DNA of 64,000 nt from Bdellovibrio sp. BCCA. GTDB taxonomy: Bacteria; Bdellovibrionota; Bdellovibrionia; Bdellovibrionales; Bdellovibrionaceae. The first letter of the stretch is position 1. Each line of letters opens with the position of its first letter. Positions 34,664 through 64,000 of this stretch are shown here, one piece after another. The DNA is taken from NCBI RefSeq assembly GCF_037996825.1, contig NZ_JBBNAC010000001.1, positions 2,976,001 through 3,040,000 on the forward strand, read 5' to 3'. Made by a program: the position numbers and the translations under genes. The notes beneath the pieces are model-generated. The model was not told the origin of the DNA and did no database searches. It was given only the letters and a program-made list of their open reading frames with translations.

Positions 34664-34721
34664 ATTTTTGCCTCCAAATTTTTCGTTAACTTGATTGTAG
34701 ACATAATTTATACTTTGTCTT

Positions 34722-35285
34722 ATGCGAGTTTTTCTTCCTCTCTTTTTTTTGACCTTGGTCTTGAGCGGTTTTGCCACATTGGCAGCGCCTCAAACAACGA
34801 CCACTTTAGAAACGACACCGCTTTCCGCGGAAGATGATCCTTTGCTCGCAACCGTGACCCCGTCCATGATCAAGGACCGCCCTACTTTTTACTTAAACAC
34901 TTCCGTGGGATTTGCGGGAGGAAACTACATTGAGAGCGACGAATATCATCAGGGACCGTTTTTAGCCTTACGCTATATTCCGATGAACGAATCGCTCCCT
35001 GTGTGGGATTATCAAGTTGAAGTGAACAACGCGAATTTCGTCGGCATCTCGGTGGGACGGCGTTGGTATTGCTGTCCTGAAGAAACTTACATGCCCTATG
35101 TGCGAGCTTCGGCAAATATGTTTTTAGAAGGATCTGGAGAGTTGGGCGGATTGGTAGAAATCCGCCGTCTGCGACTGCGCGGTTCGATTGGATTTGGAGA
35201 AATTTTTATCTCTGAATTTGGTGTCGGATACGCGATCACGGGACCCGATATTTTTGCGCAATTCGGTTATAATTTTTCTTTTTAA
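34722..35285 (+). CDS. Small exported beta-rich protein
   Basis: 187 residues with a signal peptide (about 1-21, cleaved near LAAPQ). A Thr/Asp-rich linker is followed by strand-like segments (TFYLNTSVGFAGGNY, LRYIPMNE, ISVGRRWYCC, ASANMFLEGSGELGG) and a C-terminal FAQFGYNFSF, so a small eight-strand-type outer-membrane barrel is likely. A CC pair sits near 117. No family is recognised. The ATG is only about eight bases downstream of a TATACT box, so the leader may be very short. The stop overlaps coaE by four bases (TTAA). Confidence 0.72.
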   Translation: MRVFLPLFFLTLVLSGFATLAAPQTTTTLETTPLSAEDDPLLATVTPSMIKDRPTFYLNTSVGFAGGNYIESDEYHQGPFLALRYIPMNESLPVWDYQVEVNNANFVGISVGRRWYCCPEETYMPYVRASANMFLEGSGELGGLVEIRRLRLRGSIGFGEIFISEFGVGYAITGPDIFAQFGYNFSF

Positions 35286-35890
35286 GTTTCTTTTTTCTGA
35301 TTCTCAAGCCACGCCAGCAAACGATCGACTTCTTTTAAAAGATGTTGCTCATCGCGATTGTTGTGCAAAACAAAATCAGCTTCTTGCTCTTTAAATTGAA
35401 TGGGAATTTGCGAGGCAATTCGCATCTCGATTTCATCGTCGGTCCATTTGTTACGACGTTGCAGACGTTCCCGTTGTTGCCCTTTTGTACAACTCACAAC
35501 AATGATTCCATCAAACTGATCTTGAGCTTTGGTTTCAAAAAGCAGAGGCACATCGTAAACAGCCAAAGCCTCATTCATGCCCTCAAGCAGACGACGGCGA
35601 CGGCGCGTTTCTTCGCGCACCAACGGATGAAGAATCCCTTCCAAGCGATGCAAAAGTTCCGGATGACCGAAAACATGTTGTCCTAATTTGCGACGATCCA
35701 ACGATCCATCTTCCAAAAGGAAGTCGCTTCCGAAAGCGTTGATGACAGACTTAAGTCCAGGAGATCCTGATTTCACGACTTCTTTGGCAATTTCATCGGC
35801 ATCAATGACAGGAATGGAATGTTCTCTAAGCATACGGCTCACGGTGCTCTTGCCACAAGCTATACCTCCGGTCAGTCCTATCCATTTCAT
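35282..35890 (-). CDS. coaE: Dephospho-CoA kinase
   Basis: 202 residues. It phosphorylates the ribose 3'-OH of dephospho-CoA, the last step of CoA synthesis. P-loop GLTGGIACGKSTVS is near 5-18, followed by VIDADEIAKEVV, the family GSLDRRKLGQHVF block, LHPLVREE and a VYDVPLLFE strand. ATG 35890 has AAGGAG seven bases upstream. It is convergent with the small exported gene, with stops overlapping, and divergent from the PEGA kinase gene. Confidence 0.95.
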   Translation of the reverse strand: MKWIGLTGGIACGKSTVSRMLREHSIPVIDADEIAKEVVKSGSPGLKSVINAFGSDFLLEDGSLDRRKLGQHVFGHPELLHRLEGILHPLVREETRRRRRLLEGMNEALAVYDVPLLFETKAQDQFDGIIVVSCTKGQQRERLQRRNKWTDDEIEMRIASQIPIQFKEQEADFVLHNNRDEQHLLKEVDRLLAWLENQKKET

Positions 35891-35903
35891 AGACAAATCT
35901 CCT

Positions 35904-35930
35904 TAAGGATTAATTTTATTTTACCGATAG
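35904..35930 (+). promoter_or_regulatory. Sigma-28 (FliA)-like promoter for Ser/Thr kinase gene
   Basis: TAAG-N15-ACCGATAG has the sigma-28 spacing and six of eight bases of the GCCGATAA box. The predicted start is about 18-20 bases before ATG 35956. It resembles the element at 32618. Confidence 0.4.
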
Positions 35931-35955
35931 ACTTCTCAAAGGGGAACAGGAATTC

Positions 35956-37926
35956 ATGTCTCAGCCCGTAGAGCAGTTTGGTAAGTACATTCTTCTAGAG
36001 CGTCTCGCTGCAGGCGGCATGGCCGAAGTGTACCTGTCTAAGTCAACGGGAGCGGTTGGCGTCAATAAGTTTGTCGCTATCAAACGCATCCTCCCCCAAT
36101 ATTCCGATCATCAAGAATTTATTGAGATGTTTAAAGAAGAGGCAAAGATCGCCGTGAACCTGAATCACGGAAACGTTGTCTCAATTTACGATTTCGGTGT
36201 GGAAAGAAGCCAGTTCTTCCTTGTCATGGAATACGTGGAAGGAAGAAATCTTCGCCAAATTCTCAATGAGCTTAAAAAGTCCAACACACAATTCATCATC
36301 GAACAGATCGTTTACATGATGAAAGAAGTGGCTGCCGGACTTGATCACGCTCACCGCTGCATCGACGGCACAACGGGAAAACCTTTGAACATCGTTCACC
36401 GTGACATGAGTCCACAAAACATCATGGTCAGTTTTGAAGGTGAAGTAAAAATCATCGACTTCGGTATCGCTAAAGCAGAAACACAGCTCGAAGCTACAAA
36501 AGCCGGAACTCTTAAAGGAAAATACGGCTACATGAGTCCCGAGCAAGCAGACGGGCAAGCCATTGACCCACGCACGGATATTTTCTCTTTAGGTATCGTT
36601 CTTTGGGAGCTTTTGGCCAATGACCGTCTTTTCACTTCCAATAGTGAAGCGGCGATCTTAAGAAAAATTCGTGAGTGCCAAGTTCCTTCCATCCGTAAGA
36701 TCAATCCTTCCGTTCCTCCGGAATTGGAAAGAATTGTTAATAAAGCTTTGGCAAAAGATAAGAGCCTTCGCTACCAAACAGCGGCGGCCTTGCACCGTGA
36801 TTTGAATCGTTTCTTGAATACGCAATACCCTGAATTTTCTCCTCACGATTTCAGCGTTTTCATGAAGAACGCATTTTCTGCGGCCTTCCTTGAACAACGC
36901 CGCAAGCTTGTTGAGTTCGCGAAAATCCAAGGAAACAATCCGGAAGATAAAACCGTTGTGACACAGACGGATCTTCGCGGCAACTCGGCACCTCGTCCTC
37001 CAGCAGCAGCCCCCACAGCCGCAGAAGCCAGTGATGATGATAAATTAAATCTAGATACTTCCACAGATATTCGTGTGAACTTGGATAATTTAAAGCCACC
37101 TCCACGTCCAACGGGAGCGGCTCCAGCCAACACTCATACGAATACCAATATCACGCAAACTCGCACGCAAGCTACGGGAACATTTGCCTCTGGCAACAAC
37201 ACGATGACTCGCACTCCTTCTGGGGGATATGCGGGAACTCGCCCGGCTATTCCGAAGTCAGCGTCCTCAGCATCGTCGATAGAAAATATCACGGGCATGG
37301 CGATGAAAGCTGTGATCGGCTTGATCCTTATGATCGGAGGCTGGTGGGTATTTAATAATTTTGTTTCGAAAAAATCTCCTAACAAAGCACCGACCGCTGT
37401 CGGTATGGCGCCAGTGACTTCCGGTGGAGAAAACCAAGCCAGCAACAACAACGGTATTCAACAAACGGATTTGTCTGCGACATCTCCTGAATACACCGTC
37501 ACGCTTTACAGTAATCCAGACCGTGCCCGCGTTGTTATTGATGGCGTAGATACAGGTGAATTTACTCCCGCGCGTAAAACTGTGAAAGCAAACACACCAT
37601 TTAGCCTTCGTCTTGTTAAAGAAGGTTACACGGATTTAGTGACAACAATCACTCCGACTTATGAAGCTTACTCATTCACAGGAACGATGCAAAGACTTCC
37701 TCGTGTGGCTTCCGTCATCATCAATATTGTGAATGGTGGAGCTAATCCTGAACTTCGCATCGCCGGAGTTCCTGTTAACATCAAACCTTCCGGAGATGCT
37801 TATCTCATCCAAGCGGAAGTCGGTGTTAAGATTCAAGCACGCAATAAAACCACAGGACTTTCAGCAGAAACCACTGTCACAGTTCCTGCGGATCAACGAA
37901 AAATTTTAGACTTGTATTTGAAGTAA
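35956..37926 (+). CDS. Ser/Thr protein kinase with membrane segment and PEGA domain
   Basis: 656 residues. The N-terminal kinase domain (about 10-285) has the Gly-rich loop ERLAAGGMAEVY, VAIKRI (catalytic Lys), IVHRDMSPQN (catalytic Asp), KIIDFGIAK (DFG) and GYMSPEQADG. A Pro/Thr/Asn-rich linker (330-440) leads to one membrane segment (about 450-470). The C-terminal part holds a PEGA domain (near 510-570: RVVIDGVDTGEFTPAR, LRLVKEGYTDL). The kinase is cytoplasmic and the PEGA domain should be periplasmic. The type is common in Myxococcus and Bdellovibrio. AGGA precedes the ATG by five bases. The acyl-CoA ligase starts 39 bases after its stop. Confidence 0.92.
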   Translation: MSQPVEQFGKYILLERLAAGGMAEVYLSKSTGAVGVNKFVAIKRILPQYSDHQEFIEMFKEEAKIAVNLNHGNVVSIYDFGVERSQFFLVMEYVEGRNLRQILNELKKSNTQFIIEQIVYMMKEVAAGLDHAHRCIDGTTGKPLNIVHRDMSPQNIMVSFEGEVKIIDFGIAKAETQLEATKAGTLKGKYGYMSPEQADGQAIDPRTDIFSLGIVLWELLANDRLFTSNSEAAILRKIRECQVPSIRKINPSVPPELERIVNKALAKDKSLRYQTAAALHRDLNRFLNTQYPEFSPHDFSVFMKNAFSAAFLEQRRKLVEFAKIQGNNPEDKTVVTQTDLRGNSAPRPPAAAPTAAEASDDDKLNLDTSTDIRVNLDNLKPPPRPTGAAPANTHTNTNITQTRTQATGTFASGNNTMTRTPSGGYAGTRPAIPKSASSASSIENITGMAMKAVIGLILMIGGWWVFNNFVSKKSPNKAPTAVGMAPVTSGGENQASNNNGIQQTDLSATSPEYTVTLYSNPDRARVVIDGVDTGEFTPARKTVKANTPFSLRLVKEGYTDLVTTITPTYEAYSFTGTMQRLPRVASVIINIVNGGANPELRIAGVPVNIKPSGDAYLIQAEVGVKIQARNKTTGLSAETTVTVPADQRKILDLYLK

Positions 37927-37965
37927 TCCCCTTCGTTATACATTTGCAACTTGGGAGTTATCATC

Positions 37966-39744
37966 ATGACGAAGCCCACCACTTTGGGACATTCTATTCT
38001 CAGCATGCGCGGTCGCAATCCCAATCACACCGCTGTGAAATTTAAAACCAATGGTTCGTGGACTTCAAAAACTTGGCCCGAGTATTACCAAGATGTAGAA
38101 AATGTCGGGTCTGCCCTTCTGTCCATGGGGATCAAAGAAGGCGATAGAGTTGCGATCATGGCGAATACACGTTACGAGTGGTCAGTCATGGATCTTGCGA
38201 TCTTCGGTATCAAAGCGATCACCGTTCCTATTTATCAGAACAACACGGCCGAAGATGTTGAATATATTTTAAATAACTGTCAGGCACGCGTTTTGGTTTG
38301 TGAAACTCGCGGCCCTTTGAAAATTTTCGAAACTGTTAAAGACAAATGCCCGACGATTGAAAAGTTGGTGGTCTTCGAAAACACTTGCCCTAATCCTGAC
38401 GCAATCACTTGGGATCGTGTGCACAAGATGGGACAAGACTATTTGGTCAAACATCCCGATCAATATCGTAGAACTTGCGAAACCATCGTAGCTTCCGACA
38501 CGGCAACGATTCTTTATACATCCGGAACAACCGGAAGGCCGAAGGGCGTGGTTCTTACTCACCTTCAGGCTTTCAGTGAAGTTTCAGAGGCCTTTCCCTT
38601 CTGTGGTGCCAAAGAAGAAGACGTTTCACTGAGCTTCCTTCCCTATGCTCATATTTTGGGCCGTATCGAACACTGGGGTCATTTGTATATCGGCTTTACA
38701 ATGGCGTATGCTGAAAGCTTAGAAAAGATTCGGGGCAATCTTACTGAAATTCGTCCAACTATCATGGTTTCCGTTCCGCGTATTTTTGAAAAAATCTATG
38801 CGGCTATTTGGGCGCAAGTACAAACACAGCCATTGAAGATGAAAGTCTTTAATTGGGCTCTTTCCATTGGTAAAAAAGTCGGCGAATACAAAATGAGCGG
38901 ACAGATTCTGCCTTTGGATCTTTTGGTAAAATACGAAATGGCTCGCAAGCTGGTTTTAGGAAAAATCACGGAAGCTTTTGGTGGTCGTTTGCGTTTTGCT
39001 ATTAGCGGTGGTGCTCCGATTTCAAAAGACATCGCTTTGTTCTTTCACTCTGCAGGAATTTTAATTCTGGAAGGTTATGGCCTGACAGAAACAACCGCGG
39101 CGATCACCGTGAATACACCTTTTAACTATCGCTTTGGCAGCGTCGGTCGTCCGATTGGCGAAGTGCAATTAAAAATTGCCGAAGACGGAGAAATCTTAGT
39201 TAAAAGCGACAAGGTGATGAAGGAATACTATCAAAACCCGGAAGCCACGAAAGAAGCTTTCACAGACGGTTGGTTTCATACCGGCGATATCGGTGAAATT
39301 CTTCCCAGTGGTGATTTAAAAATCACGGATCGTAAAAAGGATTTGATTAAAACGGCCGGTGGTAAATACGTAGCACCTCAGCGCCTTGAAGGCTTGTTAA
39401 AACTTTCTCCATATATCGCGCATGTGCATATCCATGGCGATCAGAAGAAATACATCGTGGCCTTGCTGACGATGGACCGCCCTTCCGTTGAACAATTGGC
39501 GAAAGAAAAAAATGTCAGCTACAGCGATTGGAATTCTTTGGTGAATTCTTCTTTTGTGCAAGATATTGCCCGCAAAGCCGTCGCTGATGCCAATGCGCAA
39601 CTGGCAAGTTACGAAAGCATTAAAAAGTATTTGGTTCTTCCCAATGAATTCACGATTGAAGGCGGGGAACTTACTCCTTCTTTGAAAGTGAAGCGCAAAG
39701 TGTTGGATCAAAAATTTAAGGATAAAATCGAAGAATTGTATGTT
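37966..39744 (+). CDS. Long-chain acyl-CoA synthetase (FadD/FadD15-like)
   Basis: 593 residues counting from ATG 37966 (GGGAG eight bases upstream; the in-frame TTG at 37951 is less likely). The stop codon follows at 39745-39747. It activates a fatty acid through an acyl-AMP to acyl-CoA. The AMP-binding signature is LYTSGTTGRPKGVVLTH (near 182-198). Other blocks are FLPYAHILGRIEHWG, GYGLTETTAAI, WFHTGDIGE and the hinge KDLIKTAGGKYVAPQ. It is a typical bacterial long-chain enzyme of the AMP-forming type. It is the first gene of the seven-gene + strand operon, with the next ATG 17 bases after its stop. The chain length used cannot be told. Confidence 0.9.
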
Positions 39745-39764
39745 TAACACGACTTAGGGACACC

Positions 39765-41177
39765 ATGAATTGTGTCGAGCTCTTCACGCAAAAGGCAAAA
39801 GAACATCCCGAGCGGACGGCCATTTGGCTTTCTCCGACGGAGCAGATTTCTTTTGCCGAGCTTCTGCACCACGGCGGTAAAGCCCAAGTCACTTTGCGAA
39901 AAATGAATCTCAAAGCCGGAGATTCACTGCTGCTTCTGGAAACTTTGACTCCCCAACTTTATGCGATCATTTGTGCTGCCTTAGGCATGGGAGTTTCGGT
40001 CATCCTGGTCGAGCCGTGGATGCCAGTCACAGATATTGAACACGTTATTAATCTGGTAAAACCAAAACTTTTTGTGACTCGTTGGTGGGGATATCCCTGG
40101 GGCCTTCGCGTTTCTTCCATTCGCCATATTCCCCGCTGGATGCACGTAACAAGTCTTTTTAAAGAGCCGACTTCTGATTTCAAAGCGGAATCCGTCGATC
40201 CGCAGATTCCTGGGATTATCACTTTCACAACGGGAACTACGGGAAAACCCAAAGGCGTGCGCCGCAATCAAGGCTACCTCATTGACCAATATCATGCTCT
40301 CGATCATTCCCTTGGACTTTCAAAACATGAAGGACCCGATATGACTTTATTTGCTAACTTTGCTTTAGCGAATCTGGCAGCGGGCCGCACCTCGGTGATT
40401 GTAAATCCGAAGTGGAAGAAGAGCCAGCTTGAACACATCTTTGCCCTTCCCAAAGAGCAGCAACCTGTGACCCTGACAACGGGCCCTGCATTTTTGTTAG
40501 AGCTTTTCAAATATCAAAATGTTTTACCAGAGCTTAAATCCATTCATGTCGGTGGAGCACTGACGGACACATGGATTTTTAAAGAGGCTTTCAAACGTTG
40601 GCCCGAGTCTCAGTTTCAGCATCTTTACGGAAGCAGTGAAGCTGAACCCGTCGCTCACGCAGATGCACGTAAAGCTGTTTCTTTTTCTGAAGGGAAAGGA
40701 TATTTCCAAACGCTTTTCGTCGGTCATCCGGCATCTGATATTCAATCAAAATTTGAAGACACAGGCCTTTGGGTGACAGGCCCTCATGTTTGCCCTGAAT
40801 ACATTGGCAATGCGGAAGAAAACAAAAAGAACAAGCGTAGAGACTCAGAAGGACATGTTTGGCATTCAATGGGTGACCGTATTGTCTCTGATGAAAAAGG
40901 CTGGTGGTACTCCGGCCGAAGTCAGCAATCTTTGGAAGATTTTGAACTTGAGCAACAAGTCTACGCATTTTTAAAATCCAGCAAAGCGTTTCTTCATAAA
41001 ACTCGAACCGGTCTTTGCTTAGTCGGAGAAAATTTGATTGGCAAAGAATTGGATATTAAAAAAACATTCCCGGTCATTCAAGCCGTGCACGAAGCTAAAA
41101 TTATTCGCGACAGAAGACACCGTGCCCGTATTGACCGTTTACAAAGTTTAAAAAAGGCAGGTCTTCATGACCTTTAA
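39765..41177 (+). CDS. AMP-dependent acyl-ligase, OleC-like
   Basis: 470 residues, short for the family. The signature reads FTTGTTGKPKGVRRNQ (near 154-169). Later blocks are HLYGSSEAEPVAH and WHSMGDRIVSDEKGWWYSGR in place of the usual TGDxxxxxxxGxxxxxGR. The sequence pattern recalls OleC-type beta-lactone synthetases and small acyl-AMP ligases more than acyl-CoA synthetases; this is from memory of the motifs only. The stop lies eleven bases inside the following gene, so the two are translationally coupled. In this operon it may act on a product of the acyl-CoA ligase. Confidence 0.78.
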   Translation: MNCVELFTQKAKEHPERTAIWLSPTEQISFAELLHHGGKAQVTLRKMNLKAGDSLLLLETLTPQLYAIICAALGMGVSVILVEPWMPVTDIEHVINLVKPKLFVTRWWGYPWGLRVSSIRHIPRWMHVTSLFKEPTSDFKAESVDPQIPGIITFTTGTTGKPKGVRRNQGYLIDQYHALDHSLGLSKHEGPDMTLFANFALANLAAGRTSVIVNPKWKKSQLEHIFALPKEQQPVTLTTGPAFLLELFKYQNVLPELKSIHVGGALTDTWIFKEAFKRWPESQFQHLYGSSEAEPVAHADARKAVSFSEGKGYFQTLFVGHPASDIQSKFEDTGLWVTGPHVCPEYIGNAEENKKNKRRDSEGHVWHSMGDRIVSDEKGWWYSGRSQQSLEDFELEQQVYAFLKSSKAFLHKTRTGLCLVGENLIGKELDIKKTFPVIQAVHEAKIIRDRRHRARIDRLQSLKKAGLHDL

Positions 41178-42183
41178 AATTTTAGCTCGCTCTGAAACAT
41201 CAGATAAATCGGCGTTTGACTCTTTGTTCGCGAAAGCACCTTCTCTCTTGCGCACAACAGAAGAGGCCTTCGGTATGGCGCCAGAAGTTTGGACTCAAGC
41301 TCTGCTCGGTCGACCATTACCATTCCCTTGCGAATTCTGGATTGCCACAGAGAATGACAACGTCATTGGACGTATTGGTGCGAACTTATCGCCATTCTAT
41401 AAAGATCACGGTTATCTTGGTTTCTTTGAAGCAAAAGATAAATCAACGGCGCACTCTCTTTTAGAGAAAGCCAGTTCCTGGTTGCGTTCAAAAGGTGTTA
41501 AAGCGGCGGTAGGACCTGTGAATTTAAACACGTGGCTTCCCTACCGATTCCGCACGGATTGGAAAGATCCACAAGTTTTTTCTTGGGAGCCAAACCATCC
41601 TCGTGCTTATTCTGAATATTTTGAATCGTTTGGTTTTCAAAACTATGCTTCTTATCACTCCAATGGATACACAGGTCTGAAAGATCTTTTCGAGAGTACA
41701 AAGGCGGACTACGAAAAAGCTTTGCAAAAAGGTTTTTCGTTCAGACCCTTGATCGCAGAACAAATGCTGCAAAAAGATATTCCTTCTCTTCACCGTATTA
41801 CGATGGCGGCTTTTCAAAAGAATTTTCTCTTTGAGCCTGTGCCCCTAGACTATTTCAAAGAATTCTATGTTCCTCTGGCTAAGAAAGAAAATTTAGAGCA
41901 TGCTGTTTTTGCAGTCTCACCGAGTGGAGAAGATGTTGGTTACTTTTTCAATGTCATCGAAAAAGATTATTTCGTCCTTAAAACAGTCGGCATTGATCCT
42001 GTTGCAAGAGGAAATGGTCTTTCAAACGCCATGCTTCACCACTGTCTTATCACCGCTGTACCAAAGGGGTTGGAAAAAACTATTTCCGCCCTGGTGAAGG
42101 CCGGAAATCAAAGCGAGTCCTACGGTAAAAAACAGAAACACCTGTGGACGCATGAATACACACTTTACAAAAAGGACTTGTAA
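41167..42183 (+). CDS. GNAT-family acyltransferase-like protein
   Basis: 338 residues. The C-terminal part has a GNAT acyl-CoA site, TVGIDPVARGNGLSNAML (motif A), preceded by GYFFNVIEKDYF strands. The N-terminal half (RIGANLSPFYKDHGYLG, AAVGPVNLNTWL) looks like a second, degenerate GNAT lobe, as in two-domain members. The substrate is unknown; an acyl donor from the neighbouring ligases is plausible. It starts inside the OleC-like gene and ends eight bases before the P450 gene. Confidence 0.75.
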   Translation: MTFKILARSETSDKSAFDSLFAKAPSLLRTTEEAFGMAPEVWTQALLGRPLPFPCEFWIATENDNVIGRIGANLSPFYKDHGYLGFFEAKDKSTAHSLLEKASSWLRSKGVKAAVGPVNLNTWLPYRFRTDWKDPQVFSWEPNHPRAYSEYFESFGFQNYASYHSNGYTGLKDLFESTKADYEKALQKGFSFRPLIAEQMLQKDIPSLHRITMAAFQKNFLFEPVPLDYFKEFYVPLAKKENLEHAVFAVSPSGEDVGYFFNVIEKDYFVLKTVGIDPVARGNGLSNAMLHHCLITAVPKGLEKTISALVKAGNQSESYGKKQKHLWTHEYTLYKKDL

Positions 42184-42191
42184 GGAACGTT

Positions 42192-43535
42192 ATGAGCAAA
42201 GTACCAGGACCTTCATTTTTAGAATTTGCGGCGAACACTCACAAACTTATCTGGAATCGCCTGGAGTATCTTGAAGAAACTCACCGCAAGTACGGCGAGA
42301 TCGTCAAGCTTCCCTTTGGTGTGCGCACGAGCTACATCATTTTTCACCCTGATTTGTTTCAGCAGGTTTTGGTAAGCCACCACAAAAAGTACTGGAAAGG
42401 TCGCACCTTTGAAAAAGCCAGCGGCTATCTTGGAAAAGGTCTTGCTACCAGTGAAGGCGAAGAATGGCTGACACAACGTCGTAAAATGAATCCGCATTTA
42501 CATCGCGAAGCCTTAAGCGGACTTTCGGAACTGATGGTTCACAACGTCGATAAAATGCTGGATCGTTGGGATGAAAAAAGAAAAAAAGGCGAACTGATTG
42601 AAGCCACCACAGAATTCCAACGACTTGCGATGGAAATCGTGGCTCGCGCTCTTTTAGGTTCTCAAGTTCCTGAAAAAGAAATCAATGACATCATTGAGGC
42701 TTTCAAATACGCACTTCAATTCACTGTCGATCGTACTCTGAATCCCTTGGATATTTCCGAATCTTTGCCTTTGCCTTCCAATATTAAATTTAAAAAGGCC
42801 ATGGAATTCTTAGACAGCGTCGTTTACCGCATGATTCGCGAAGAACGACAAAGAGAAAATCCCTCAGGCACTTTGCTTTCAATGCTTGTCTATGCTGAAG
42901 ATCCTGAAACAGGCGCAAGAATGACCGACAAACAACTTCGCGATGAAGTTTTGACGATGTTCTTGGGCGGTACAGATACCAGCGGCAACACAATGAGCTG
43001 GACTCTTTATAATCTTTTTGCCCATCAGGATATTTATCAAAAGGCCGTAGCCGAAGTCGATACGGCTTTGCAAGGTCGCTCACCTGGTTTTATGGATTTG
43101 CAAAATCTTAATTACATCAAACGTGTGATTGAGGAGACTTTACGCCTTTATCCTCAAAACTACATCATGTCTCGCGACAACCTTGAAGAAGACGTGATTG
43201 GCGGTTACACCATTCCAAAAGATTCTACGGTATTTTTAGGAGTATGGGTGGCGCACCGTCGAGGTGATTTCTGGGAAAATGCAATGACATTTAATCCCGA
43301 TCGCTTTTTACCGGAGAACCTTAAAGGACGCCATCAACAAGTTTACATTCCGTTCGGTGGTGGTCCCCGTAAATGCATCGGTTTTCAGTTTGCATTTATG
43401 GAAATGACTTTTGCGATGAGTCGCATTGTACAAAGATATAAATTTGAGATCACGAATTTTTCGCAAATCAAACCAAAACCGACTTGGTCTTTATGGCCAG
43501 GCCCGACGATGGACATTAAAATCACACCGCGATGA
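42192..43535 (+). CDS. Cytochrome P450
   Basis: 447-residue haem monooxygenase. The I-helix motif is GGTDTSGNTMSW, the K-helix is ETLRLYPQ (ExxR), and the haem loop FGGGPRKCIG carries the thiolate Cys395. The PxRF-type block NPDRFLPEN is present. There is no N-terminal membrane anchor, so it is soluble, as usual in bacteria. It resembles fatty-acid- and alkane-type P450s (CYP102/CYP4/CYP110-like pattern), a loose guess. No ferredoxin or reductase gene is adjacent, so redox partners must come from elsewhere. Its stop overlaps the MFS start as ATGA. Confidence 0.93.
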   Translation: MSKVPGPSFLEFAANTHKLIWNRLEYLEETHRKYGEIVKLPFGVRTSYIIFHPDLFQQVLVSHHKKYWKGRTFEKASGYLGKGLATSEGEEWLTQRRKMNPHLHREALSGLSELMVHNVDKMLDRWDEKRKKGELIEATTEFQRLAMEIVARALLGSQVPEKEINDIIEAFKYALQFTVDRTLNPLDISESLPLPSNIKFKKAMEFLDSVVYRMIREERQRENPSGTLLSMLVYAEDPETGARMTDKQLRDEVLTMFLGGTDTSGNTMSWTLYNLFAHQDIYQKAVAEVDTALQGRSPGFMDLQNLNYIKRVIEETLRLYPQNYIMSRDNLEEDVIGGYTIPKDSTVFLGVWVAHRRGDFWENAMTFNPDRFLPENLKGRHQQVYIPFGGGPRKCIGFQFAFMEMTFAMSRIVQRYKFEITNFSQIKPKPTWSLWPGPTMDIKITPR

Positions 43536-44698
43536 ATTGGAAAAGTCTGACTCCCCTTCTTTTGATTGTCTTTGTCGACATCCTCGGAATGATGATGATC
43601 ATTCCGCTTTTGCCGTTCTTTGCGATCAAATTGGGAGCCAGCGTCTTTGAAACCGGAGTCATCACCGCTTCCTATGCAGCGATGCAAATCATTTTCAGTC
43701 CTGTATTAGGCCGTCTTTCAGACCGTTTTGGTCGAAAGACTTTGTTACTTTTAAGTCAGTTCTTTTTGGCGAGCGGATTTTTCTTTCTCGCTTCAGCGCA
43801 AACTGTTGGGTTTGTTTTCTTTGCACGCATTCTTTCGGGCATTGGCGCTGGAAATTTATCCTTGGTACAGGCCATGATTTCGGATTCCACAGCGGATGAA
43901 AACAGAACCAAAGCTTTCGGTCTTTTCGGTGCGGTTTTTGGTCTCGCTTTAACCATAGGCCCTGCTATTTCAGGAGCTTTGGCGAAAATCAATTGGTCTG
44001 TGCCGATTTATTCTAGCTTCGCGCTTTCTTGCGTCAGTATTTTGCTAACAACCGTCCTGCTTCCCAAAGGTCTTCCATCAAAAGGAAAAGGTCCGGCGTT
44101 AGGAAGCGTTGTCAAAAAGTTTATTCTTCAACCACGTCCTCGCCAGTGTTTTTTACAGTTTATTTTCTTTTTCTGTTCGTTTGCTTTTCTGATTTCGGGC
44201 TTGGGCCTCATCATGGAAATGCGCTTTACCAACAGTCATGGAGAAAAATACGGCCCGTCTGAAATCGGTTATCTTTTCGGAGCTCTCGGGGTCATCGGCA
44301 TCGTTATTCAAGGTTTTATGCTTCCGAAACTGGAAAAACGTTTTGGCGATAAAAATCTAAGTTCTACAGGTTTCATTCTTACATTGCTGGGCTACGTCGG
44401 TGTTGGTCTTTCCCAAAATGTTTTTATATTTTTTGTGGCTTGCGGAGTTTTTGGAATTGGCAACTCTTTGATTCGTCCGACGGTGACCAGCCGACTCACC
44501 AAAAGCTTGCACAAATCAGAAGAAGGGTTGGCGTTGGGGTTTTCTAATTCTCTTCAATCCTTGGCCCAAGTTTTATGCCCCCCTTTAGGTGCTTATTTTA
44601 TTCAACAACAATGGATTCCTCAGTTGGGTCTTCTGATGGCGGGACTTTCTTTATTAGGATATTTTGCGGGAGTAAAACAGTATGACAGCGTGGCTTAG
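43532..44698 (+). CDS. Major facilitator superfamily transporter
   Basis: 388 residues, about twelve membrane segments. The loop 2-3 motif is GRLSDRFGRKTLLL, and motif GRLxDRxGRK marks the MFS drug-H+ antiporter type; a second degenerate copy follows near 290. It is likely an exporter for the product of this operon, since it sits between the P450 and the prenyltransferase. It overlaps the P450 by four bases and the next gene by 17. The substrate is not visible. Confidence 0.88.
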   Translation: MNWKSLTPLLLIVFVDILGMMMIIPLLPFFAIKLGASVFETGVITASYAAMQIIFSPVLGRLSDRFGRKTLLLLSQFFLASGFFFLASAQTVGFVFFARILSGIGAGNLSLVQAMISDSTADENRTKAFGLFGAVFGLALTIGPAISGALAKINWSVPIYSSFALSCVSILLTTVLLPKGLPSKGKGPALGSVVKKFILQPRPRQCFLQFIFFFCSFAFLISGLGLIMEMRFTNSHGEKYGPSEIGYLFGALGVIGIVIQGFMLPKLEKRFGDKNLSSTGFILTLLGYVGVGLSQNVFIFFVACGVFGIGNSLIRPTVTSRLTKSLHKSEEGLALGFSNSLQSLAQVLCPPLGAYFIQQQWIPQLGLLMAGLSLLGYFAGVKQYDSVA

Positions 44699-45539
44699 TT
44701 TTATAAAAGAACGTTTGCCTTTGGCCTCTTATGCGCTGATTGTTGGCGGCTTTGTCATGACAGCAAAAGCGGTGATGCAAACGCCGTGGACGTGGAAACT
44801 TCTCATTCCTTTTGTCGGTTTGCTTTTTTTCTTTATTGAACTTCGTTTGATGGACGAACTGAAAGATTATTCAAAGGATGTGGTGGCTCATCCGCAGCGC
44901 CCTTTACCTCGCGGACTTGTCAGTGTTGCTGCGATGAAAAAAGTCGTTAATGCTGGGCTTATAGTGATGTGGGCCTTTGCCGGACTTTCTTTTTTGTTAA
45001 ATGGTGCTTCGGCCATTACTTACGCCTTGATCGTTCTGTATCTTTATTTGATGTATAAAGAGTTCTTCGTCGGTGAAAGTCTTGCGAATAAACCGTTTCT
45101 TTATGCGTGCACTCATCAGATTATTATCGTTTTGCTTTTAGTCTATGCCGCAGCTTCTTTAAATCCTGAAGCCATTCACTCGGATTTGGCTTACCTTGCG
45201 GGCTTTGTGATCTTGGGATGCTTCTTTACTTACGAAGTCGCACGTAAAATGGATCCAAAGGCGCATCCTATTCTAAAAACTTATTTGTCTGTCTATGGCA
45301 GAAAAGGTGTCGCGGTTATTCTTATCTTCCTGCAGCTTGTAAGCTGGATCGCGGCGATTTTGATGAAAGAACAAGTTGTTTTATTTGGTCTTATCGCGGG
45401 CTCCGCTTTGTTGCTTCTATCTTGGTTTGCCTTTATGACAAACGAAGCAAAGTTCAAACTTGTCGAAACTGCAGGAACTCTGTGTCTGCTTATTAGTTTA
45501 TATGTCATTCCACTCAGCCTTTGGCTAACAAGAGGTTAA
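44682..45539 (+). CDS. UbiA-like membrane prenyltransferase
   Basis: 285 residues with about eight membrane segments. The first aspartate-rich motif is MDELKDYSKD (DxxxDxxxD), followed by HPQRPLPRGLVS, a block typical of UbiA-family prenyltransferases. The second metal motif is atypical: EVARKMDPKAHP in place of DxxxD with Gly. A prenyl or polyprenyl diphosphate would be joined to an acceptor made by the other enzymes. It overlaps the MFS gene and is one base from the next start. Alternative: an atypical UbiA-fold phosphatase or CDP-alcohol-type enzyme. Confidence 0.78.
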   Translation: MTAWLSFIKERLPLASYALIVGGFVMTAKAVMQTPWTWKLLIPFVGLLFFFIELRLMDELKDYSKDVVAHPQRPLPRGLVSVAAMKKVVNAGLIVMWAFAGLSFLLNGASAITYALIVLYLYLMYKEFFVGESLANKPFLYACTHQIIIVLLLVYAAASLNPEAIHSDLAYLAGFVILGCFFTYEVARKMDPKAHPILKTYLSVYGRKGVAVILIFLQLVSWIAAILMKEQVVLFGLIAGSALLLLSWFAFMTNEAKFKLVETAGTLCLLISLYVIPLSLWLTRG

Positions 45540-45540
45540 T

Positions 45541-48267
45541 ATGAAACGAATTTTTACTTCTGAAGACACTCTTGATGTATTCAAAAAATCCGGTGGAGGA
45601 AAAGCCTATAATATGGCTCGCCTCACTCAAAAAGGAGTTCCGGTTCCGGAATGGTTCTGCGTCAGTGCAGAAGCTTATGAAGAATTTATCTCTTCAAACT
45701 CTTTAAATCCCGACAGTCTGATTGATCCGACTCAGTTAGGAAAAAGTGCCGAGAATATCGAAGCCGCTTTTTTGAAGGCGCAGATTCCCTTGGCCTTAAT
45801 TAAAGAAATTGAATCCAATCTTACAAGAACGCAGCTCACTACTCAGTTCGTAGCTGTGCGATCCAGTGGCCTTGATGAAGACTCGGCACAGAACTCTTTT
45901 GCCGGGCAATTTTCGTCCTATCTTTTTCAAAAAGGAATGGATGCGATTTCATTGTCTTTAAAAAAATGCTGGGCTTCCGCTTTTTCAGAGAGAGCTCTTG
46001 CCTACCGTATTGAGCGAAACATCGGAATCAAAGGAATTTCGATGGGCGTTATCATTCAAAAAATGGTGAATGCTGACGCAGCGGGTGTGGCATTCTCTAG
46101 AAATCCAATCAAAGCTTTGGACCGCGATCATCTTTTGGTGAGTTCCGTCTGGGGACTTGGAGAAGGTCTCGTGAGCGGTGAGCTTGATGCCGACCACTAT
46201 GAAGTTCATCGTAATGATCTTACTTTTAAACCTCATATCGTAGATAAACCCGAGGCCCTTCGCCAAGCCCCTGAAGGTGGATTGGTGAAAACACACGTCG
46301 AAGCAAACTTAGTCAAAGCTTCATCATTGACAGACACTCAGGTAAAAGAAGTTTCTAAGCTTACATTGGAATTAGAAAAGAAATTCGAAGCGCCTCAAGA
46401 TTGTGAATGGGCTTTTGAAAACGGCAAGCTTTACTGCGTGCAAACCCGCCCTATCACTTCATTGCCGCCTGAAGAATTCTTCGATGCGCACATCAATGGC
46501 AGCGAAGCCACTCTTTGGGATAACTCAAACATTATTGAAAGTTATTCGGGTGTAACGTCCCCACTGACGTTCAGCTTTGCGAGCCAAGCTTATCGTCAAG
46601 TGTATATTCAATTCTGCGAAGTGATCGGTGTTCCGCAATCTTTGATTGATAAAAATGAAAAGATGTTCCGCAATATGCTGGGTCTGATTCGCGGGAATAT
46701 CTATTATAACTTGATCAATTGGTACAAGCTGATCTTGATGCTTCCAGGATCTAGTGACAATAAGGCTTTCATGGAAACAATGATGGGGGTTAAACAAGGA
46801 TTAAAACCTGAGTTTGCCCATCTGTTTGATTTTATGAAAACACCGGTGCGTTATTCGCCTCCTCATAAGGCATGGCTTTTGACGATGACGTTGTGGCGCT
46901 TTTTACGTATCAACAGCATTGTGACTGAATTCCAAACTCATTTCACAGCGACCTACAATGACGCCCGCAAAAAGAACTTCCGCAGTATGTCTTTGAATGA
47001 ACTGCGTGAGTTCTATGAATATTTAGATGGCGAAGTTTTGCGAAACTGGAAGGCGCCCATCATCAATGACTACCTTTGCATGGTCTTCTTTGGTCTTCTT
47101 AAAAAACTCACAGAAAAATGGGTGGCTGAAGGCAATGACGGAGCTTCTTTGCAAAACGACCTTCTTTGCGGTCAAGGTGATCTGGAATCCACAGAGCCGA
47201 CAAAAACTTTGATGAGAATCGCAGCTTGGGTTGATAAAGGAAATCCCGCTTTACGCGAATGGATTTTGGCAACACCGATTGATGTCGCTTGGAAAACACT
47301 CACTGAAGGAAATCATCCCGAGTTTAAAGCCAAGGTCGACGACTTCCTGGACAAATATGGCTTCCGCTGTATCAATGAACTAAAACTTGAAGCGCAAGAT
47401 CTTCACGACGATCCGACTTTTGCGATTGGTGCCATTCAAAGCTACGTGCGCATGAAATCTTACGACATCGAAGAGATGGAAAAGCGCGAGCTTGAAATCC
47501 GCCATAAAGCTGAAGCTCTTGTAAATCAAAAGCTTTCGGGATTTAAACGCTGGTTCTATTTTAGAATCCTAAATCAAGCCCGCAAAGCGGTTCGCAACCG
47601 TGAGAACCTGCGCTTTGCCCGTACCAAGATTTTCGGTATCGCCCGCCATCTATTCAGAGGCATCGGCTACCAACTCACTCGCTTGGGTCAGCTAGAAAAT
47701 GAACGCGATATCTTCCTCCTCACTGTTGAAGAAATCATGGCCTTCATTGAAGGTCGTGCCGTTTCCTTAGAGCTTCGTAAAATCATTGAACTTCGTAAAG
47801 AAGAGTTCAAAGGTTATGAAGAATCTCTTCCACCACCGGATCGCTTTATGAGTTTCGGTGCGGCCGGTGTGGCGTGCAAATTCCCGCAAGTTCTTACCGA
47901 CGGCGATTTGCTCCGCGGAGAAATTCCGCAATCTGACGATCCCAACGTGCTTTACGGAGTTCCGTGCTGCCCAGGTGTGATTGAAGGTGTCGTTCGTGTT
48001 GTAAACAACATGAAGGATGCAGAAGGATTGAACGGAGAAATTCTCGTTACAGGCAGAACCGATCCAGGATGGGTTCCACTTTACCCTTCTTGTTCAGGAC
48101 TTCTCATTGAGCGCGGAAGTCTGCTTTCTCACTCGGCCGTTGTAGCCCGCGAATTGGGACTTCCGACGATTGTTGGGGTCTCCGGAGGACTAATGACAAA
48201 ACTAAAAACCGGACAACGCGTGCGAATCGACGCCGGAAAGGGCGAAATCCGCATTTTGACAGAATAA
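45541..48267 (+). CDS. PEP synthase / rifampin-phosphotransferase-like dikinase
   Basis: 908 residues. The N-terminal PPDK-type ATP-grasp domain starts GGGKAYNMARL and has VAVRSSGLDEDSAQNSFAGQ and the late strand EWAFENGKLYCVQTRPI (near 290-310). A large central region (315-790) matches no domain I know. The C-terminal swivelling His domain (about 800-908) has LIERGSLLSHSAVVAREL, where His is the phosphorylated residue. The layout (ATP-grasp, insert, His domain) is that of PEP synthase and rifampin phosphotransferase, not complete PEP synthase, since no PEP-binding barrel is seen. It probably phosphorylates an organic alcohol in this pathway. Last gene of the operon. Confidence 0.85.
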   Translation: MKRIFTSEDTLDVFKKSGGGKAYNMARLTQKGVPVPEWFCVSAEAYEEFISSNSLNPDSLIDPTQLGKSAENIEAAFLKAQIPLALIKEIESNLTRTQLTTQFVAVRSSGLDEDSAQNSFAGQFSSYLFQKGMDAISLSLKKCWASAFSERALAYRIERNIGIKGISMGVIIQKMVNADAAGVAFSRNPIKALDRDHLLVSSVWGLGEGLVSGELDADHYEVHRNDLTFKPHIVDKPEALRQAPEGGLVKTHVEANLVKASSLTDTQVKEVSKLTLELEKKFEAPQDCEWAFENGKLYCVQTRPITSLPPEEFFDAHINGSEATLWDNSNIIESYSGVTSPLTFSFASQAYRQVYIQFCEVIGVPQSLIDKNEKMFRNMLGLIRGNIYYNLINWYKLILMLPGSSDNKAFMETMMGVKQGLKPEFAHLFDFMKTPVRYSPPHKAWLLTMTLWRFLRINSIVTEFQTHFTATYNDARKKNFRSMSLNELREFYEYLDGEVLRNWKAPIINDYLCMVFFGLLKKLTEKWVAEGNDGASLQNDLLCGQGDLESTEPTKTLMRIAAWVDKGNPALREWILATPIDVAWKTLTEGNHPEFKAKVDDFLDKYGFRCINELKLEAQDLHDDPTFAIGAIQSYVRMKSYDIEEMEKRELEIRHKAEALVNQKLSGFKRWFYFRILNQARKAVRNRENLRFARTKIFGIARHLFRGIGYQLTRLGQLENERDIFLLTVEEIMAFIEGRAVSLELRKIIELRKEEFKGYEESLPPPDRFMSFGAAGVACKFPQVLTDGDLLRGEIPQSDDPNVLYGVPCCPGVIEGVVRVVNNMKDAEGLNGEILVTGRTDPGWVPLYPSCSGLLIERGSLLSHSAVVARELGLPTIVGVSGGLMTKLKTGQRVRIDAGKGEIRILTE

Positions 48268-48272: not shown

Positions 48273-48294
48273 GGGAGCTCAAAGCTCCCTTTTT
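48273..48294. terminator. Bidirectional terminator ending the lipid/P450 operon
   Basis: GGGAGCT-CAA-AGCTCCC followed by TTTTT on the + strand and preceded by an A-run. It starts six bases after the stop and also serves the convergent gene. Confidence 0.92.
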
Positions 48295-48315: not shown

Positions 48316-49527
48316 CTAAAGTGACAATTGGCCTTTTTCGAACTGATCAAGACCCTTCATGATCTGCTTCATCTGATCACTGAAAACTGTTGAAGGCTGA
48401 TCATCCAACTCTTTGGTCTTACATGGAACAGCACCAACAATCGCTTTAAAGGCGTTGCATTTTATCGTCGTGAAGCACGTCGTATTTGTACAAGCTACGG
48501 CATCGCCTTGGAAGAAATTAAGCGTGCGGTTGGATTCAAATGTTTTATTATCAATAGCCTGCGCACATGCATTTCTTCTGTTCCCGCTCTTATCACCTGG
48601 GCACATCCAGTCTTTTACAACGGAAAGAACTTCTTCACGTGAAGATTGCAAAGAAAGTGGTGTGATAGAAGGAACTAAAAGTGTGTAATGAATCAAAGCT
48701 TGAGGAATCAAGCTGTCCACTGTTGAAAACACCTTATAGAAACCCAAACCTTTGCTGAATTTACCGAAGCTATCTTGATAAGCGGCGTTCACAGGTTTTA
48801 AACGCATGCATTTAAGACTTGTGCACTCAATGCTACCACGAGTGATACGCGTCGTATTTCCAATACGGCTATAGCCTTCTGGATATTGGCCGACATCATG
48901 ATAATACCACTTGCCATCTGTCATCATTTCTTGGAAATCGGCGGCATTGAAACTTCCAAACACCGGACGACGCCACATTTTTGCAGCCGCGGGAGCCAAA
49001 AGCCATCCTGAGTTGCAAGAATGGAAAACAACGAAGGCATTCGGAGCTAGTACGCTTCCGATCTGTGGAAACTCTGCATCTTCTTGATCTAAGCGGTCCG
49101 TCTTAGATTGCAAACGGAAACCGTTGTAAGTGTTGGCGTGACCAAAGAACTGTAACGATGTCACAGGTGAATTCAAATACTGGAGAGCTAAAACCAAACG
49201 CCCTTTTTCAAGGTCGTCTTTGTCGGCTTTGCGGAAACCAAAACCTGCTGACGCCAGCATGTTTTTCTCATTTTCAAACGACTCGTTCACCGCACTGATA
49301 ATGACTCTTTGTCTTTGTGGGAAACGATCGCGAGACACCTTTGCGGCTAAGATCGCGGCTTTCAAAAACTGCGTGCCTTGATCGTTACCGAAGCCTGCGA
49401 CGAAGACATCCGTAGGAACACCTGCGCGAATCTGCGCCGGCTCTGAAGCGATAAAATAGGCTTTACTGTGTTGAGACCAAGCCCCCGCTACGATAAGGAA
49501 GGCTCCTGCTAAAAGCTTTAGGTTCAT
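48316..49527 (-). CDS. Secreted caspase-fold (clan CD-like) protein, putative cysteine protease
   Basis: 403 residues from ATG 49527, chosen because a signal peptide follows (MNLKLLAGAFLIVAGAWS, cleaved near SKA). Residues 120-175 hold TSLQFFGHANTYNGF (H130) and NAFVVFHSCNSGWL (C171). A His followed about 40 residues later by Cys after hydrophobic strands is the dyad layout of clan CD proteases (gingipain, legumain, caspase). A Cys-rich C-terminal part (CPGDKSGNRRNACAQ, ACTNTTCFTTIKC) suggests disulphides. Family placement is by motif only. A hairpin sits just upstream of the ATG. Confidence 0.65.
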   Translation of the reverse strand: MNLKLLAGAFLIVAGAWSQHSKAYFIASEPAQIRAGVPTDVFVAGFGNDQGTQFLKAAILAAKVSRDRFPQRQRVIISAVNESFENEKNMLASAGFGFRKADKDDLEKGRLVLALQYLNSPVTSLQFFGHANTYNGFRLQSKTDRLDQEDAEFPQIGSVLAPNAFVVFHSCNSGWLLAPAAAKMWRRPVFGSFNAADFQEMMTDGKWYYHDVGQYPEGYSRIGNTTRITRGSIECTSLKCMRLKPVNAAYQDSFGKFSKGLGFYKVFSTVDSLIPQALIHYTLLVPSITPLSLQSSREEVLSVVKDWMCPGDKSGNRRNACAQAIDNKTFESNRTLNFFQGDAVACTNTTCFTTIKCNAFKAIVGAVPCKTKELDDQPSTVFSDQMKQIMKGLDQFEKGQLSL

Positions 49528-49531
49528 ACAA

Positions 49532-49555
49532 CCCCACTTGTAAATTAAAGTGGGG
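49532..49555 (-). other. Hairpin just upstream of the caspase-like gene start
   Basis: CCCCACTT-GTAAATTA-AAGTGGGG is a perfect 8-bp inverted repeat ending four bases before ATG 49527. It includes the GTGGGG that would be the ribosome-binding region, so folding could limit translation. It may equally be a protein-binding site. Confidence 0.55.
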
Positions 49556-49633
49556 GCATTCATATCACAGCCGCAATAAGACCTAAAGAATCAGCGACAT
49601 TTTTGGGCTTCGCTTGTGAAAAGACTTCAATGA

Positions 49634-49672
49634 CGTCTCAGAAGTGTCAAAACTGTGTACACTTCTGAGACG
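49634..49672. repeat. Perfect 14-base inverted repeat with GTCTCA/TGAGAC ends
   Basis: CGTCTCAGAAGTGT (49634-49647) and ACACTTCTGAGACG (49659-49672) are perfect complements with an 11-base loop. It lies 16 bases after the stop of the PA14 gene and about 110 bases upstream of the caspase-like start. No T-run follows on either strand. On the minus strand it contains TTGACA. It could be an operator or a terminator lacking a U-tract. Confidence 0.7.
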
Positions 49673-49687
49673 GAATTAGTGAAAAAT

Positions 49688-50869
49688 CTATGGCAGCAAA
49701 TTGATAAATGCGGTCATAGCCTCATTGCCTTTTGCATCTTTCGAAATCGCACGCACTTGATAATAGATACCGTGAACAAGTCCGGAAATTTCCACTGTGT
49801 GATCTGTGAGAAGATTATTATCCACCTGAGTGAAGATCTCTTCTCCTGTGTAGATATTCACGATATGCAGCTGACTACTTGCGGGAACTGTGGTTTTCCA
49901 CGTGATTGTGGCATTCGGCGCCACGGCGGAAGTCACTTGGAAATCGCTGATAGCCAATTTTTCTTCAACGCAAGGATTCTGCTGTCTTTCAGGCATTTTG
50001 AAATTGCCCGGAGCTACAACGTTCCAACCACTCTTCTCAAGAATAGTCATAGCCGGCATTCTTTTGCCATTGCTAGAGTTAAAGAAAAAGTTATTGGTCG
50101 AAATACCACAAAGCGAGTGATGCGAAGGTTCTTTCCATGAGTGCGCTTTTTTATGAAGTTTCCAAATAAGAACGTTGGCGATGTGATAGCGAGGTCCCTG
50201 ATAGTAAAGAATTTTTAAGGGCACTTCAGAATCTTTTTTTAAATTGATCGTACGATAAGGGCAGCCCATGCGAGTCGAATGGTTGCCGTCGTTGTTGATC
50301 AACTCATTCCACTTATCACCTTCTTTAATAAAAACGCGGGAGCCATCATCCGACAACGTCGCGATTTCATAATCACCTTCTTTATCAGCGTCTGTGAGTT
50401 TTAAGACGGAAGTATATTCTATCGCAAAGTTTTCGATCAGCTTGTTGCCCTGAGAATCCGTGAGCACATCGCCATTTTGCGCAGAAAATCCCTCTGTAAA
50501 CGGACGCGTAGGAACGTTGACGTCAGCGAAATACAAATTCTGATCCAGCTTCTGGCCTTTGTTGTAGTAATCCAAAACGCTGTTCACCTTCGCACCCATT
50601 TCAGGCGTACGCAGAATAAGCTTACCTAAAAGACCCATTTCAGGAGAGGAACTGGAATTATTTGAAAGAGGATCACACACGGTATTTGCCGGATCTGCAG
50701 GAAAATCTATCGAACCTATAGAGGAACCCGTATTCGTGCGGCTAATTCCGGAGAAAGAACAGGAAATCTTTTTTAACATTCCTTTTCTATAACGAATGTC
50801 ATCTTGTTGATTCTTTGCCTGCACAGACAAAGAAAATAGAAGTGCCGCGATAAATAGTGATTTTCCCAT
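49688..50869 (-). CDS. Secreted PA14 plus fibronectin-III-like protein
   Basis: 393 residues with a signal peptide (about 1-18, cleaved after VQA). A PA14-like domain at about 145-260 shows EGDYEIATLSDDGSRVFI, then INNDGNHSTRMG, and KILYYQGPRYHIANVLIWKL, the pattern of carbohydrate-binding PA14 beta-barrels. The C-terminal 90 residues (ITWKTTVPASSQLHIV, HTVEISGLVHGIYYQVRAIS) are a fibronectin type III or phosphatase-N-like fold. It may bind glycans on a surface, perhaps prey. It sits between the S74 fibre and the caspase-like gene, each separated by TGAGAC-type dyads, so separate units are likely. Confidence 0.75.
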   Translation of the reverse strand: MGKSLFIAALLFSLSVQAKNQQDDIRYRKGMLKKISCSFSGISRTNTGSSIGSIDFPADPANTVCDPLSNNSSSSPEMGLLGKLILRTPEMGAKVNSVLDYYNKGQKLDQNLYFADVNVPTRPFTEGFSAQNGDVLTDSQGNKLIENFAIEYTSVLKLTDADKEGDYEIATLSDDGSRVFIKEGDKWNELINNDGNHSTRMGCPYRTINLKKDSEVPLKILYYQGPRYHIANVLIWKLHKKAHSWKEPSHHSLCGISTNNFFFNSSNGKRMPAMTILEKSGWNVVAPGNFKMPERQQNPCVEEKLAISDFQVTSAVAPNATITWKTTVPASSQLHIVNIYTGEEIFTQVDNNLLTDHTVEISGLVHGIYYQVRAISKDAKGNEAMTAFINLLP

Positions 50870-50961
50870 ACAACGTCCCTCTTAATCTCTACTTATAATT
50901 TTAACAAAACTGTAAAAATTATTAAAGAAACCTGGGAGCAACGTTCGAGTATGAGATGAGA

Positions 50962-50980
50962 GAGTCTCAGAGCGAGATTC
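50962..50980. repeat. Imperfect dyad with GTCTCA just after the fibre gene
   Basis: GAGTCTC-AGAGC-GAGATTC pairs six of seven bases and contains GTCTCA at 50964-50969. It lies four bases beyond the fibre-gene stop and about 95 bases upstream of the PA14 gene start. No T-run follows. It belongs to the group of GTCTCA/TGAGAC elements described under findings. Confidence 0.45.
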
Positions 50981-50983
50981 TAA

Positions 50984-56673: not shown

Positions 56674-56682
56674 ACGTACTCC

Positions 56683-58445: not shown

Positions 58446-58454
58446 GACATCTCC

Positions 58455-61578: not shown

Positions 61579-61591
61579 CGAAGACCTCCAG

Positions 61592-62590: not shown

Positions 62591-62677
62591 AAATTTTTTG
62601 ACTCCGATAGTTCGGAAGAGCAAGTACCGTACCTACCACGACTCAGGATGAAACATGAACAAATTAGAACTGGCGCT

Positions 62678-63669: not shown

Positions 63670-63779
63670 GACTTTTCTCCTGCCCGATTCTAGCAATAAT
63701 TCTTCGTTTTGGAAATAAAATGGGAAGTTTGTGCTATCCTTCAAGAAGTGAGTCTCTACCCCTTTCACTATCTTCGCCT

Positions 63780-63785: not shown

Positions 63786-63808
63786 GAGCAGTGAAAGGCA
63801 GGTGACCT

Positions 63809-63964: not shown

Positions 63965-64000
63965 TTCATATATTCATCTCAGCTTGAGAAGTTAACGCGC

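Follow-up and report, generated by a model that had tools for sequence, protein, structure and literature searches.

Bdellovibrio sp. BCCA carries, on a 64,000-nucleotide stretch of contig NZ_JBBNAC010000001.1 (positions 2,976,001 to 3,040,000; hereafter the window), a seven-gene operon that an earlier note had described as a candidate lipid or natural-product pathway. We found that this operon makes up half of a set of two operons, which is gained and lost as a block and whose core enzymes recur together in about ten phyla. The block probably (we estimate 0.6) constitutes one lipid-biosynthesis and export pathway, composed of two convergent operons and an ABC transporter. We are somewhat more confident that the gene set serves a single lipid pathway, and consider the specific ether/aminolipid chemistry outlined below doubtful. 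The product is most likely a modified membrane lipid carried to the outer membrane.

Organization of the block

The seven open reading frames (ORFs) lie at 37966-48267 of the window, all on the + strand and at the positions given previously. They encode a long-chain acyl-CoA ligase (FACL), an OleC-like ligase, a tandem GNAT acyltransferase, a cytochrome P450, an MFS exporter, a UbiA-like membrane protein and a phosphoenolpyruvate synthase-like protein (PEPS). The tight packing on one strand, with overlaps or gaps of at most 17 bp, was confirmed, the spacings ranging from -17 to +17 bp (FACL-OleC +17, OleC-GNAT -11, GNAT-P450 +8, P450-MFS -4, MFS-UbiA -17, UbiA-PEPS +1). Pfam and NCBIfam domain searches recovered AMP-binding (twice), GNAT, P450, MFS_1, and PPDK_N plus PEP-utilizers domains, in agreement with the families first assigned. 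The single terminator proposed for the operon end corresponds to a perfect 7-bp stem with T-runs on both strands (48273-48289), a bidirectional terminator between convergent genes; because terminator-like matches in the region are no more frequent than expected by chance (14 found vs 14.2), this call rests on position and quality. The upstream STK gene (35956-37926) ends only ~25-40 bp before FACL, so that the transcript may begin ahead of FACL.

A search for two families associated with the core, DUF3419 and acyl-thioester reductase, located a partner operon on the minus strand of the same window (55576-62623), which the earlier note had missed together with the ABC transporter. Its genes encode, in order, a DAG-kinase-like protein, an SDR, the reductase, a LolA-like protein, an outer-membrane protein (OMP) and a DUF3419 protein (spacings +13, -26, +9, -1 and +9 bp). 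Genes for an FtsX permease and an ABC ATPase are located 1.9-3.8 kb beyond the window end.

The block, which extends from ~39765 to 3.8 kb beyond the window end (28 kb), is present or absent as a unit. Within the genus, 14 of 21 genomes carried PEPS, UbiA-like, DUF3419 and reductase genes, and the other seven carried none of them. In two module-free genomes (G145 and G259), FACL is followed, after 16 and 41 bp, respectively, by the gene that in the present genome is situated 3.9 kb beyond the window end and follows the ABC ATPase gene. Since the flanking genes meet in both genomes, the ~28-kb block is absent there as a unit. In G083, the closest relative at the locus, the block forms a compact island, in which FACL is followed by the OleC-like, GNAT, UbiA and PEPS genes and then, in the opposite orientation, by the BtaA, OMP, LolA, reductase, SDR, DAGK, FtsX and ABC genes.

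Co-occurrence in Bdellovibrionota and the two core versions

The distribution of the genes was surveyed in 291 Bdellovibrionota genomes, PEPS being counted at ≥37% identity. PEPS was found in 92 genomes, and was accompanied by the UbiA-like gene in 92, by DUF3419 in 91 and by the reductase in 82 of them (Fisher p 3e-76, 3e-58 and 2e-55; as the genomes are related, these values are not true probabilities). The single PEPS genome without DUF3419 is a 78% complete genome. Co-conservation in relatives, which the earlier note had suggested as a check, was strongly borne out for the OleC-like ligase, tandem GNAT, UbiA-fold and PEPS genes, and these four form the core.

The surroundings of PEPS homologues were compared in 40 Bdellovibrionota genomes. 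The OleC-like ligase, UbiA-like and PEPS genes form a near-constant core across the loci, the ligase gene adjoining UbiA-PEPS in nearly all of them, and this core exists in two versions. Type A, represented by the present window and loci L032-L060, mostly includes the GNAT gene, with a P450 nearby in 17 of 29 loci. Type B (L061-L071) mostly includes a formyltransferase gene, and its ligase is usually fused to an alpha/beta-hydrolase. The PEPS tree splits A (SH-aLRT 100) from B (99).

Genome G069, which has a type B core, shows the STK-FACL-core arrangement at the same place as the present genome. The FACL, reductase and DUF3419 proteins of the window are more similar to those of G069 than to those of G083 (80% vs 68%, 83% vs 77% and 85% vs 70% identity, respectively), whereas the opposite holds for PEPS (43% vs 72%), the UbiA-like protein (32% vs 61%) and the ligase (26% vs 57%). 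The simplest reading of these identities would be that one core replaced the other ahead of a conserved partner operon, and such a swap in place suggests that the A and B cores do equivalent work. In G138, G144, G242, G258, G266 and other genomes, UbiA-like genes likewise adjoin PEPS homologues that share just 29-33% identity; there are therefore more versions of the PEPS-UbiA pair than types A and B.

Related loci in other phyla

A scan of named genomes, combined with neighbour searches, was used outside Bdellovibrionota; the counts are minimum values and not frequencies. At least 32 loci from nine groups hold UbiA-like, PEPS, DUF3419 and ligase genes together: at least 14 in Bacteroidota, at least seven in Pseudomonadota, at least three in Verrucomicrobiota, at least two each in Planctomycetota and Melainabacteria, and at least one each in Acidobacteriota, Myxococcota, Methylomirabilota and Balneolota. 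The genes are usually arranged as HMG-CoA-reductase (HMGR) homologue, UbiA, PEPS, DUF3419, membrane protein X, GNAT and ligase. Among the 32 loci listed, the HMGR homologue is found in 25, a CTP-kinase-like membrane protein in 27 and GNAT in 30. Protein X carries the signature DAxAAxxG...KSxEGS, which we take to resemble that of phytol/dolichol kinases, and one member matches CTP_transf_1 just under the cut-off.

Judged by these families, thioester reduction seems to be filled by an HMGR-type enzyme or by long-chain acyl-ACP reductase (AAR) plus SDR, and lipid phosphorylation by protein X or a DAG kinase, depending on the phylum. The apparent filling of both steps by unrelated enzymes across phyla points to a lipid product. 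Two further loci, L107 (Kosakonia sacchari) and L115 (Agitococcus), carry the HMGR homologue, UbiA, PEPS and ligase genes, and DUF3419 was not found in their vicinity.

Core enzymes

The 908-aa PEPS protein (45541-48267, + strand) is an ATP-grasp/His phosphotransferase (PF01326, 1e-74; PF00391, 7e-19). It is named phosphoenolpyruvate synthase by NCBIfam (NF004881). The domain search returned PPDK_N and the PEP-utilizers mobile domain only and no C-terminal PEP/pyruvate-binding barrel, as the earlier note had stated, and the PEP synthase identity was rejected for this reason. The order of ATP-grasp, middle and swivelling His domains is shared with rifampin phosphotransferase (RPH), to which PEPS aligns at both ends (5hv2, 2e-81), and with PigC/RedH; in each case the likeness comprises the ATP-grasp N-domain, an own middle domain and the C-terminal swivelling His domain. 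Residues G19-K21, R107 and H864 (the swivelling His) are invariant. In contrast to these relatives, PEPS forms clades of its own, linked to lipid-type and not to antibiotic or pyrrole genes. Its scores against the PigC/RedH (358-362 bits) and rifampin phosphotransferase (348 bits) models, compared with cut-offs of 999-1350, argue against both rifampin and a prodigiosin precursor as the probable substrate. A plasmid search returned distant PEPS relatives only. In Streptomyces (L105 and L126), related PEPS genes have P450 and SDR matches beside them, but neither UbiA nor DUF3419, and possibly represent a natural-product relative.

The 285-aa UbiA-like protein (44682-45539, + strand) had no Pfam match, gave weak supporting NCBIfam matches and matched the profile of digeranylgeranylglyceryl phosphate (DGGGP) synthase, a member of the UbiA superfamily (6m31, E 6e-6). 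Its AlphaFold model (pLDDT 95.9) had 6m31 as best PDB match (Foldseek E 5.8e-6, TM ~0.65), other top matches also being UbiA homologues, and the assignment to this fold was thereby upheld. The two proteins share the UbiA fold and the first acidic motif region followed by RPLP.G; the first Asp-rich motif (NDxxDxxxD) is kept acidic as DExKDxxxD, with D58, D62 and D66 invariant. They differ at the second Asp-rich motif, which in prenyltransferases binds diphosphate through magnesium: it is lacking in the UbiA-like family, and an invariant ExxRK (E185, R188-K189) stands in its place in every phylum compared. We therefore did not accept a plain prenyltransferase, and prenyl transfer as such, which had been proposed for this step, was not retained. 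A non-diphosphate donor is possible, judging from these motifs.

The 470-aa OleC-like acyl-AMP ligase (39765-41177, + strand; PF00501, E 2e-24; NF006754, 5e-46) is an AMP-binding enzyme of the PRK09274/OleC kind (PRK09274, 157 bits). It did not reach the curated OleC (olefin beta-lactone synthetase) cut-offs, scoring 59 and 53 bits vs 850 and 900, so far under them that the label denotes a distant relation only.

The 338-aa tandem-GNAT N-acyltransferase (41167-42183, + strand; PF00583, 2e-7) belongs to the type A core and is conserved with the module. Its model (pLDDT 92.5) contains two GNAT domains, and the best matches include the tandem GNATs 7q3a and 2wpw. A possible ceramide-synthase reading of this protein was also considered, for which PMC11334938 gave no sequence test.

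Partner operon

The DUF3419 protein (365 aa, 55576-56673, minus strand) resembles BtaA, the S-adenosylmethionine (SAM):diacylglycerol 3-amino-3-carboxypropyltransferase of betaine lipids, and matches PF11899 over its full length (residues 3-364 of 365 on model positions 3-385 of 385; E 3e-60). It differs from BtaA in belonging to a divergent subfamily linked to PEPS and the UbiA-like protein. A canonical betaine lipid was not accepted on account of this divergence, and inspection of the two operons revealed no further methyltransferase that could be a BtaB N-methyltransferase partner. Two Bdellovibrionota genomes without PEPS encode DUF3419 proteins of 380-393 bits (G060:C319:7217-8347 and G197:C5:112791-113924), which are probably genuine BtaA enzymes of betaine-lipid synthesis.

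The acyl-thioester reductase (709 aa, 58455-60584, minus strand) is of the PigE/AAR type, matching PigE (4ppm, 8e-25), AAR (6jzq, 2e-6) and the NCBIfam PigE model NF053554 (171 bits). Its C-terminal half aligns across the whole thioester-reductase domain of AAR and PigE; unlike them, it has an extra N-terminal half of ~330 residues without known family and remains under the equivalog cut-offs (51 bits vs 450 for the AAR equivalog TIGR04058), so that only a homologous domain is indicated. It is preceded by genes for a thioester-reductase-like extended SDR (339 aa, 60559-61578, minus strand; PF07993, 3e-15; TIGR01746, 1e-9) and a DAG-kinase/YegS-type lipid kinase (343 aa, 61592-62623, minus strand; PF00781 (DAGK_cat), 4e-20).

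The remaining two genes, also on the minus strand, encode a LolA-like periplasmic carrier (232 aa, 57747-58445; PF17131, 5e-32) and a predicted outer-membrane protein (354 aa, 56683-57747), which had no Pfam match and is a conserved neighbour (cluster 22). The LolA-like protein and the FtsX/ABC pair recall the LolA/LolCDE system of lipoprotein sorting, from which the block differs in that the carrier is of the PF17131 family and the copies sit inside a lipid module. An AraC-type regulator gene (62794-63969) is located upstream of the partner operon on the same strand, and fragments of this regulator are present at the G277 empty site.

Flanking, accessory and cargo genes

Only part of the seven-gene unit originally proposed was upheld: the four core genes stood, FACL did not, and P450 and MFS stood only as accessories. 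FACL (37966-39747, + strand) was found in 24 of 24 genus genomes, whether or not they carry the module, and is unlinked from it, elsewhere in the genome, in G174, G209 and G061. Because it is present in module-free genomes and not always linked, FACL is a flanking gene and no pathway gene. The conserved flank of the window (33482-39747), comprising the gene at 33482, coaE, STK with a PEGA domain and FACL, indicates an insertion site that varies within the genus.

The cytochrome P450 (447 aa, 42192-43535, + strand; PF00067, 3e-91) contains both the heme-binding Cys motif FGGGPRKCIGF and the ExxR motif EETLR, and was found at the site in G000 only among 24 genomes. Both this gene and that of the MFS exporter (388 aa, 43532-44698, + strand; PF07690, 7e-55) are absent from G083, which weakens their place in the unit. 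A lone MFS gene behind FACL in G061 (L201, 4471-5622), whose product is 68% identical to that of the window, seems to be left over from a type A operon that was lost; the G061 core is on another contig.

The genes at 48316-54513 were rejected as pathway members and are regarded as cargo, several of them being found at the site without the module. No defence-family matches were obtained among them. At 50984-54513, a 988-aa protein with a C-terminal Peptidase_S74 (endosialidase chaperone) domain adjoins a 188-aa protein with a lipoprotein-like start (LLFLVGC), and the pair is also found at this site in G277, which lacks the module.

Proposed pathway and alternative explanations

Gene linkage, co-occurrence, the empty site, the swap of core versions in place and the protein folds are observations; we infer every chemical step, the order of the steps, the substrates and the product from enzyme families. 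The AAR/PigE-type reductase and the thioester-reductase-like SDR would convert a long-chain acyl thioester to an aldehyde or alcohol, and the DAG-kinase-type lipid kinase and the PEPS His-phosphotransferase would place phosphate onto lipid hydroxyls. The UbiA-fold membrane enzyme would link the activated chain, plausibly through an ether bond, to an acceptor, and the BtaA-like DUF3419 protein may add a SAM-derived 3-amino-3-carboxypropyl head group. Acylation of an amine would be performed by the OleC-like ligase and the tandem GNAT (the formyltransferase replacing the latter in the other core version), and the FtsX/ABC, LolA-like and OMP proteins would take the product to the outer membrane. 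In this scheme, P450 and MFS are accessories of the present strain.

Several points weigh against this pathway. Ten PEPS genomes, seven of them from one genus, lack the reductase; the second prenyltransferase Asp motif is missing from the UbiA-like protein; and the DUF3419 protein scores 204 bits, about half the 380-393 bits of the probable true BtaA in PEPS-free genomes, so that its reaction may differ from that of BtaA. PEPS and the reductase are also related to enzymes of prodigiosin synthesis (PigC/RedH and PigE), which make a small molecule rather than a membrane lipid. The export role is drawn only from the LolA-like and FtsX neighbours.

The relation to prodigiosin enzymes raises the alternative of a secreted small-molecule natural product, with PigE-type aldehyde formation, PigC-type condensation by PEPS, P450 tailoring and MFS export. 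The PEPS scores with the PigC/RedH and rifampin phosphotransferase models, the PigE-like reductase domain, and the P450 and MFS genes inside the operon (together with the P450 near many type A loci) would fit it. However, the PigC/RedH scores are far under their cut-offs (1300-1350), G083 has neither P450 nor MFS, and the presence of the lipid kinase, DUF3419, LolA-like and FtsX/ABC partners speaks for lipids rather than for such a product, which we regard as improbable. Still less credit can be given to an olefin/beta-lactone pathway akin to OleABCD, with beta-lactone formation by the ligase and decarboxylation by OleB-like domains. The PRK09274 match, the hydrolase-ligase fusion of type B, arranged as in OleBC, and the weak similarity of the SDR to OleD-type reductase (2e-6) recall that pathway, but the ligase reaches only 6-7% of the curated cut-offs, no OleA thiolase was found among the annotated conserved neighbour families of the loci, and UbiA, PEPS and DUF3419 have no role in it. 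That unrelated genes have merely accumulated at a variable insertion site behind FACL, their packing being an accident of the present strain, is the least credible explanation. Unrelated cargo does occupy the site in module-free species, and P450 and MFS are patchy; for these two genes and the cargo it may apply. For the core genes it is refuted by their near-complete co-occurrence in PEPS genomes, which recurs across many phyla with the genes differently ordered and located.

Implications

A lipid pathway therefore remains our preferred reading. The earlier view of a biosynthetic set of conserved genes, with a lipid as its most likely product, was sustained: the pathway is real, conserved and apparently undescribed. 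No description of the gene set was found in the open literature; subscription papers and preprints were outside the scope, and novelty is thus unproven.

We tentatively suggest that the core makes an unrecognised class of membrane lipid over about ten phyla, by means of a UbiA-type transferase with a non-prenyl donor activated by PEPS. If so, predatory bacteria would produce this class alongside sporadic representatives of Bacteroidota, Planctomycetota, Verrucomicrobiota, Acidobacteriota, Pseudomonadota and other groups, through a pathway hidden behind the annotated names phosphoenolpyruvate synthase, prenyltransferase and DUF3419. The exchange of A and B cores before the same partner operon within one genus is a natural experiment, in which a difference between the products would reveal the head-group or acyl-cap genes, and the gene set shows lipidomics groups which cultured strains to compare.

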